Assembly (NCBI GenBank): GCA_003223975.1
Contig: QHXS01000052.1
Span: 1-38,516, forward strand
Direction: 5' to 3'
Length of the DNA stretch: 38,516 nucleotides
Origin: Acidobacteriota bacterium
Lineage (GTDB): Bacteria > Acidobacteriota > Blastocatellia > Pyrinomonadales > Pyrinomonadaceae
The translations under genes and the position numbers were made by a program. Positions 34,725 to 36,512 of the stretch are shown here, piece by piece. Numbering within the stretch: position 1 is the first letter of the stretch; each line of letters begins with the position of its first letter. A model generated the notes under the pieces. The model did no database searches and had not been told where the DNA came from. It saw only the letters and a list, made by a program, of their open reading frames with translations.

Positions 34725-34750
34725 AAATGCCCCGCCAAAAAGGCGAGGCT
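34725..34750 (-). terminator. Intrinsic terminator after the 53-aa membrane protein gene
   Basis: On the minus strand GCCTCGCC and GGCGGGGC pair around a five-base T loop (roughly 34748-34727), followed by ATTTTCTTTTTG. It lies 23 bases after the stop at 34773. Confidence 0.7.
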
Positions 34751-34772: not shown

Positions 34773-34934
34773 TCAGCGAGTTGGTACAGTCACGTTGACA
34801 TCGAGCTCCTTCTTCTGCTTTCCCGAAAGAAATCCTCCATAATACAATGCGCCCATTACGATCGCGACGATCACGATCAGGGCGAATGCCCATACAAAGT
34901 TGCTTGCTGCTCCCGACCCGTTATCTTCTGCCAT
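34773..34934 (-). CDS. Small single-pass membrane protein, unknown function
   Basis: A 53-aa protein with one hydrophobic helix (~13-35, NFVWAFALIVIVAIVMGALYYG) and short charged ends (MAEDNGSG and SGKQKKELDVNV). I chose ATG 34934 because GGAGG stands 7 bases ahead; the open frame continues to 35000 without an SD. It is followed by a good terminator. I recognise no family. A hydrophobic mini-protein with N-out/C-in or reverse topology is likely; role unknown. Confidence 0.72.
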   Translation of the reverse strand: MAEDNGSGAASNFVWAFALIVIVAIVMGALYYGGFLSGKQKKELDVNVTVPTR

Positions 34935-35063: not shown

Positions 35064-36197
35064 TTAGCGTGATGTAGCTCGAGCTTGTTCAGGTTCCGTC
35101 GCATTGCTTCGCCGGAAACTCGCTTTTTCCGCTTCCATCTGGCTCGCCAGTCTCTCCAATGTCGCGTCTTCTACCTGATCATCCACGAGCGGGAACATTT
35201 CGTCCTCTTCTTCCTCAACGTGATGCTCGACGTCTTCCATGAGAACCCTGATCTTCGCTCTAAACGCTTCCGAATTACCGGAAAGTCCGGCGAGTTCTGC
35301 GAGGAAAGCCTTCACCTGCCGATGTTCTTCCACACCCTCGCGCACTATGCGCTGGAGGTCCTGATCGCCGTTTTTTAAGAGATATGGATAGAAGATCGTC
35401 TCTTCGATATGAGCGTGAGTGTCAAGCTCCTGTTTGATCTTTCGAAAGACCCCCGCATTATCGCCGTTCTCATTCGCTTTAACTCGCTCGAACAGTTCCT
35501 CAACCACTCGGTGGTCCGCTTTTAACAGGTCGATCGCGTTGGGCTCGGTTGGCGTGAGCGCCGACGAAACGGCGTCAACAACTCTCGAAACGATGCCCTT
35601 CTTCGCCGGCTGTTTTCGTTTTGCTGCTGTCGAACGGTTCGTAGTCGTGGTCCGAGTTTTCGGTTTTGCTGTAGAACGGCTTCCAGCCGACGTCGTTCGG
35701 TTTGAAGTACGACCGCTATTCATTGACCGCGTCTTCGAACTCGTCGATTTTGCTCGACCGTTAGTTTTGACTGTAGTTCGCGTTGTCGAGGTTCTCGACT
35801 TTGAAGCGGCTCCGTCACCACGTTTGGTCGAGCTGCGTTTCGCAGATGCCGTCTTCGCCTTAGAGGACGACGTTTTTCTCGACGCCCCGTTTCCCGAACC
35901 CGTAGTTCTGCTTTTGGAAGCCGCCGCGGCTGAACGTGATGCTGAAGTTGATCTTGAAGCAGATCCCTTGGATCCCGATTTCGATGTTGATCGCGAAGAG
36001 CCGGCCTTGGATGTTGTTCGCGACGCCGATGACCTAGACGACGCTGACTTCGATGCCGAAGACGAAGACTTCGATCTCGAAGGCGCCGAGCCGTTCGATC
36101 TCGACGAACTGCTCTTGGTCTTTGCTGCGGTTCGCGACCTTGATGAAGAAGCCCTGGAACCCGATTTGGACTTTGCCGTTTGTTTGGTTGCTGCCAT
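35064..36197 (-). CDS. Hemerythrin-domain protein with long basic histone-H1-like tail
   Basis: A 377-aa protein of two unlike halves. Residues 1-200 are almost only Ser, Lys, Arg, Thr, Ala and Gly with repeated SRS/SKS/TRT units; the only acidic residue is D128. No signal peptide or membrane helix is present. Residues ~220-345 are a hemerythrin four-helix domain with likely di-iron ligands H229, H261, E265, H292, H325 or H326 and E330 (motifs DHRVVEEL, HAHIEETIFYP, EHRQV, EHHVEEEEDEMFP). It ends in a short helical tail. The tail resembles H1/HctB-like DNA-condensing sequences, so DNA or RNA binding is plausible. Start ATG has the strong SD GGGAGG. Hemerythrins bind O2 or NO or sense iron; this one has no signalling domain. 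Confidence 0.88.
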   Translation of the reverse strand: MAATKQTAKSKSGSRASSSRSRTAAKTKSSSSRSNGSAPSRSKSSSSASKSASSRSSASRTTSKAGSSRSTSKSGSKGSASRSTSASRSAAAASKSRTTGSGNGASRKTSSSKAKTASAKRSSTKRGDGAASKSRTSTTRTTVKTNGRAKSTSSKTRSMNSGRTSNRTTSAGSRSTAKPKTRTTTTNRSTAAKRKQPAKKGIVSRVVDAVSSALTPTEPNAIDLLKADHRVVEELFERVKANENGDNAGVFRKIKQELDTHAHIEETIFYPYLLKNGDQDLQRIVREGVEEHRQVKAFLAELAGLSGNSEAFRAKIRVLMEDVEHHVEEEEDEMFPLVDDQVEDATLERLASQMEAEKASFRRSNATEPEQARATSR

Positions 36198-36365: not shown

Positions 36366-36512
36366 TCAGGCACATCCAGAGTGCCCGCAATCGCACCTGA
36401 TCTCAACCATGTCCTGGTCCGCGGCATCGCGGCAATGGTCGCTGCAATACGATGCATCGCCAGCCGTCGGACAATTACAGATCTCATGTTCACATCTTCC
36501 ATCGTCAGCCAT
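36366..36512 (-). CDS. Metallothionein-like Cys/His-rich small protein
   Basis: A 48-aa protein whose ATG (36512) has SD GGAGG 8 bases ahead; the frame extends to 36569 but without an SD. Eight Cys (C7, C12, C14, C23, C27, C40, C42, C47) and three His (H9, H26, H44) lie in a pattern like SmtA-type bacterial metallothioneins: CxCN, YCSxxC, and CGHxGC near the end. Such proteins bind zinc, cadmium or copper. It lies upstream of and on the same strand as the tailed hemerythrin (169 bases apart), so shared regulation is possible. The call rests on Cys/His spacing; function in this organism is inferred. Confidence 0.72.
   Translation of the reverse strand: MADDGRCEHEICNCPTAGDASYCSDHCRDAADQDMVEIRCDCGHSGCA

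Follow-up and report, generated by a model that had tools for sequence, protein, structure and literature searches.

Genes and features of the locus

The window, the whole stretch of 38,516 nucleotides that was analysed, comes from a soil acidobacterium and contains on its minus strand a gene for a 377-residue protein, in which an HHE (hemerythrin-like) domain follows a long basic tail. The original prediction had placed this open reading frame at 35064-36197, which is exact, and had described its product as a hemerythrin fused to a 200-residue tail resembling histone H1: composition, Pfam and structural model confirm the fusion. The features of the locus are listed below, each with its supporting evidence in brackets.

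34729..34749, minus strand: terminator-like hairpin, 3' of the mini membrane protein gene (consensus scan)
34773..34934, minus strand: mini membrane protein, downstream of the tailed HHE gene (ORF; BLAST homologue in G012)
35064..36197, minus strand, stop codon included: tailed hemerythrin-like protein, 377 aa (ORF, Shine-Dalgarno, genus orthologues)
35100..35537, minus strand: predicted HHE di-iron bundle, residues 221-366 (Pfam, model, 6q09 match, ligand invariance)
35556..35594, minus strand: short amphipathic linker helix, residues 202-214, IVSRVVDAVSSAL (model, hydrophobic moment, orthologue linkers)
35598..36197, minus strand: cationic disordered N-terminal tail, residues 1-200, net charge +49 (composition, pLDDT, spacing of basic residues)
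36366..36512, minus strand: metallothionein-like Cys-rich small protein, from MADDGRC (Cys pattern; co-occurrence and linkage with HHE genes)

A strong Shine-Dalgarno motif, AAAGGGAGG, is found 7 nt 5' of the ATG of the tailed gene: its position directly 5' of the start codon makes translation of the tail very likely. The mini membrane protein has a homologue in G012, encoded some 8 kb away from the tailed gene (BLAST to L052:23-193, 49%). The hairpin at 34729..34749 marks a possible end of the transcription unit; in the consensus scan, the total number of terminator-like hairpins exceeds that of shuffled sequences only modestly. The metallothionein-like gene lies 168 bp upstream of the tailed gene, on the same strand. 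Its product has a conserved pattern of CxC, YCSxHC and CxCGHxGC; when compared with PF02069 (Metallothio_Pro), the window copy gives no match, and the copy of a relative scores E 1.4, 9.6 bits, against a cut-off of 33.

The HHE domain, the linker and the tail

PF01814 is the only Pfam match of the tailed protein (residues 221-338; E 5e-19; 69.5 bits against a curated cut-off of 25.3); membership of the Dps/ferritin family (PF00210) was accordingly rejected. An assignment to the RIC/YtfE Fe-S repair proteins was also discarded, the TIGR03652 score being 32 bits, with a cut-off of 204.7. In the predicted model, residues 221-366 form a bundle with pLDDT above 93 over most of its length. The best PDB match, by structure (TM 0.77 by target length) as well as by sequence, is 6q09, the HLP of M. 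kansasii, an orthologue of Rv2633c. Both proteins feature a five-helix HHE bundle with the H..HxxxE..H..HxxxE pattern; identity is about 28%, and the mycobacterial protein differs in having no tail and in using one more ligand, a Tyr described as peculiar to the HLPs of mycobacteria (PMC8913304). M. kansasii HLP is a di-iron protein that acts weakly as a catalase and as an NO peroxidase (PMC8913304).

Alignment and model agree on a four-helix bundle carrying the H..HxxxE..H..HxxxE ligands, and H229, H261, E265, H292, H325, H326 and E330 are invariant in the 41 aligned sequences. The ligands had been described as intact, which stands for H229, H261, E265, H292 and E330; for the pair given as H325/H326, alignment with 6q09 narrows the choice, and H326 with E330, rather than H325, is the likely ligand in the last HxxxE. 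According to PMC9388753, the ligands of O2-binding (bacterio)hemerythrins are five His, one Glu and one Asp. In the window protein HxxxH is absent, a K being found at position 296, after H292, and H326xxxE330 occupies the place of HxxxxD. The missing motifs speak against an O2-binding (bacterio)hemerythrin: judged from sequence, the ligand set is of the HHE cation-binding pattern, unlike that of O2 carriers. The suggested role as an oxygen sensor or buffer becomes therefore unlikely, and iron, peroxide or NO chemistry is indicated.

The tail is composed of 62 S, 31 T, 29 A, 26 K, 24 R, 13 G, 6 N, 3 P, 2 M, 2 Q, 1 D and 1 V. The six residue types S, T, A, K, R and G account for 185 of the 200 positions (92.5%), and D128 is the sole acidic residue, in agreement with the composition originally noticed. 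Its net charge contrasts with that of the rest of the protein, which is -16. In the model most of residues 1-194 are predicted to be disordered (pLDDT <50); the tail proper stops near residue 200, and the short helix follows. Among the 12,030 stop-free 100-aa stretches present in the six frames of the window, tail-like composition is confined to the 35064-36197 ORF. No counterpart of the tail was found elsewhere in the same genome, nor were tandem repeats found within it, DNA level included.

The four N-terminal tails known from the genus are alike mainly in composition, their sequences having diverged. In all four, K and R are more evenly spaced than in shuffled sequences (standard deviation of gaps, p 0.0004, 0.0018, 0.0038, 0.0024); ten further tails, located at either terminus, go in the same direction by a related measure, with p <0.05 in four of the ten. 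Even spacing in diverged tails argues against random low complexity: the charge distribution looks to be under selection, as for a polyanion binder. Similar tails, at one end or the other, are found in relatives, and this makes a tethering role probable, with DNA, RNA or some other negatively charged polymer as the partner.

The helix at residues 202-214 is modelled with pLDDT of about 77, and leads into the bundle. Its hydrophobic moment is 0.46, versus 0.23 in shuffles (p 0.011). A related linker is present in three orthologues from the genus; amphipathicity is significant in three out of four N-linkers of the genus (p 0.007 to 0.019; p 0.08 for L048) and in two out of five C-linkers, and for one C-tailed relative no confident model of the helix was obtained. 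Because of this partial amphipathicity and of the C-tailed model, the helix was dropped as a universal feature, and is not claimed for all tailed proteins.

Tailed relatives and their gene neighbourhood

A search for the fusion across Acidobacteriota, proposed along with the original prediction, found tailed relatives in several genera and families; the possibility of a unique oddity of one MAG was rejected for this reason. Within the genus (41 genomes), 10 genomes have an HHE protein of this group and 5 its tailed version: the tail is N-terminal in G000, G012, G008 and G054, where the gene is cut by the contig end, and C-terminal in G015. Within the family (119 genomes), tailed HHE proteins are present in at least 12 genomes, from three genera, a lower bound based on the long frames that were read; outside the genus itself, the tails are found in genera g36 and g42, and are C-terminal and KA/S-rich. 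Among farther relatives, KA-rich N-terminal tails occur in G285, G397, G446 and G376, from other acidobacterial families, and G439 has a C-terminal tail rich in Arg and Ser. Related HHE proteins are present in 30 of the 249 genomes of a Pseudomonadota sample; the loci read include one short basic N-tail (L144) and one protein with Arg/Gly-rich extensions (L154).

Untailed proteins are the majority among the HHE proteins of the family. Relatives lacking the tail, which had been named as evidence against the proposal, are paralogues and more distant relatives only; the objection fails for the tailed clades. When 95 HHE cores are arranged in a tree, tails appear at least at four separate places, with five changes of tail state, or six if the end is counted; this is a quick tree, based on few columns and with many open forks, and it leaves room for tail losses. 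HHE domain and cationic tail are each of known kinds; of their recurrent, end-switching fusion no description was found in the literature, searched in open-licence papers.

Other arrangements were met in the same survey. In two g36 genomes, G103 and G115, the C-tailed HHE gene is directly followed by an untailed one, as a tandem pair (L117:230-1647, L097:1522-2927). In L128 (G222 C1:2234000-2237500), HHE is combined in one protein with an apparent SRPBCC-type domain, judged by reading the sequence. L154, from the Pseudomonadota genome G630, encodes an HHE domain extended by a Lys/Ser stretch at the N-terminus and, at the C-terminus, by a long one rich in Arg, Gly and Asp. The only other PF01814 match of G000 (C216:349-801, L002) resembles RIC/YtfE, with a ScdA_N-like N-terminus.

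The genomic setting supports, mainly through relatives, the metal/oxidative-stress locus which had been put forward. The metallothionein-like gene is present in 10 out of 10 HHE-bearing genomes of the genus, versus 6 of the 31 others (Fisher 7e-6, ignoring phylogeny), and lies less than 4 kb from an HHE gene in G000, G008, G012 and G007. Of the 10 HHE-bearing genomes, 5 have a catalase (PF00199), versus 1 of the 31 others; the window's own genome gives no PF00199 match. Since Fisher tests ignore phylogeny, both co-occurrences may stem from shared ancestry. In three genomes, G007, G008 and G012, no more than about 1.5 kb separates catalase from an untailed HHE gene, and in G008 the tailed gene is found about 5 kb beyond this pair. 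In G054 the order is Fur-family gene, KatG-type peroxidase, DUF3618/holin-X cluster, tailed HHE gene; the same cluster precedes the tailed gene in G008, on whose copies the DUF3618 and holin-X assignments rest.

Some loci show further details. In G007 (C282:11791-18195) a metallothionein-like gene, an untailed HHE gene and catalase are contained within 6.4 kb. In G054 (L126:296-6488) a small membrane protein is also encoded among the genes preceding the truncated HHE gene. In G012 an arsenic-type set (L052:5436-8151), composed of ArsC-like phosphatase, transporter, glyoxalase-like protein and ArsR-type regulator, with Pfam checks on its first and last genes only, separates the metallothionein-like gene from the tailed HHE gene.

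Possible roles of the tailed protein

The preferred reading, with a probability of about 0.42, is that of an HHE di-iron protein whose long cationic disordered tail tethers it to a polyanion of the cell. It is favoured by the intact ligands, the 6q09-like bundle, the +49 tail on a -16 body, the even spacing, the recurrence at either end and the neighbourhood. The bundle would hold a di-iron centre handling iron, H2O2 or NO, and the evenly distributed positive charges would bind DNA, most likely the nucleoid, with no sequence preference; the tether would thus place this chemistry where oxidative damage matters. The amphipathic helix between tail and bundle might perhaps serve as a hinge or docking element. 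The working principle would be that of Dps, on an unrelated fold: in Dps, DNA is bound by disordered extensions of the N- or C-terminus (PMC13319912). The two share a four-helix iron protein, here predicted, with a cationic disordered tail at one end; Dps differs in its ferritin fold, its dodecameric state and its tails of tens of residues, and homology to HHE was not detected. Another bacterial protein with a basic tail is HupB, of the HU family, whose folded part, unlike that of the tailed HHE protein, is the DNA-binding HU domain itself. The HupB tail is Lys/Ala-rich and eukaryotic-like (PMC5676037).

Some observations weigh against tethering to the nucleoid. HHE proteins of the family are mostly untailed, and the genome itself gives no catalase match; the nearest NCBIfam model describes a ribosome binder, and a cationic tail would be equally suited to RNA. 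This last point leads to the chief rival, absent from the original prediction: a dormancy factor directed to ribosomes or RNA, where the HHE domain would act like PA2171 of P. aeruginosa and the tail would strengthen rRNA or RNA binding. PA2171 is a ribosome binder, a translation repressor and an FtsZ inhibitor; it copurifies with ribosomal proteins and lowers translation in vitro (PMC13041383). Its family, NF053874, is the nearest named single-domain HHE family, and all 41 aligned HHE sequences match it. The window protein, however, scores 103.5 bits (E 9e-30), below the equivalog cut-off of 190, and only over its HHE part, residues 220-366; a tail of this kind is missing from the PA2171 model, and the neighbours are metal and oxidative genes, not hibernation genes. 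Such a role is, on the whole, unlikely.

A poorer case can be made for a protein associated with polyP or other granules in the manner of AlgP and PhaF, the tail binding polyP or DNA and organising granules, the HHE domain storing or buffering iron. AlgP, from polyP granules, and PhaF, from PHA granules and equipped with an amphipathic helix, likewise have an unrelated domain extended by a long, cationic and disordered H1-like tail, and these tails are thought to bind DNA (PMC9239181). The predicted linker helix would fit, as would the inorganic pyrophosphatase gene adjoining the C-tailed orthologue in G015, but the latter is a single instance, and the helix lacks a confident model in the C-tailed relative. 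AlgP and PhaF, moreover, have Lys/Ala/Pro repeat tails and no di-iron domain; with 3 Pro per 200 residues and no tandem repeat, a KPAA-repeat tail was rejected for the window protein, and the granule role appears quite improbable.

Slightly more improbable still is a non-specific protective or solubilising segment, acting with no specific partner under desiccation or osmotic stress. The low complexity and serine richness of the tail agree with it, as do the general stress-type genes near relatives (DUF3618, holin-X family, BON, dehydrogenases); desiccation proteins, however, are usually of mixed charge, while here acidic residues are nearly absent, net charge is strong and spacing is even in diverged tails. 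Finally, an untranslated or mis-assembled stretch, suggested by low complexity and by a long antisense ORF on the same DNA, is very unlikely, given the strong Shine-Dalgarno at the tail start and the tailed orthologues found in frame in independent assemblies, and repeat expansion or assembly artefact was rejected on the absence of DNA repeats.

In its boldest and rather doubtful form, the tether reading would make of such proteins a class of nucleoid-associated metalloproteins, built on the hemerythrin fold: by gaining H1-like tails at one end or the other, HHE di-iron proteins of acidobacteria would repeatedly have become protectors of the genome, Dps-like and bound to the nucleoid. Should the tail bind the nucleoid, the trick of Dps, iron and peroxide chemistry set on DNA by a cationic tail, would have evolved again on an unrelated fold, probably more than once; should it bind ribosomes, a connection would emerge between hemerythrin-like proteins and translational dormancy, in a phylum abundant in soil. 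In both cases the tailed HHE architecture would acquire a function. A plain replacement of Dps was rejected, because ferritin/Dps-family genes are present in 40 of the 41 genomes of the genus.
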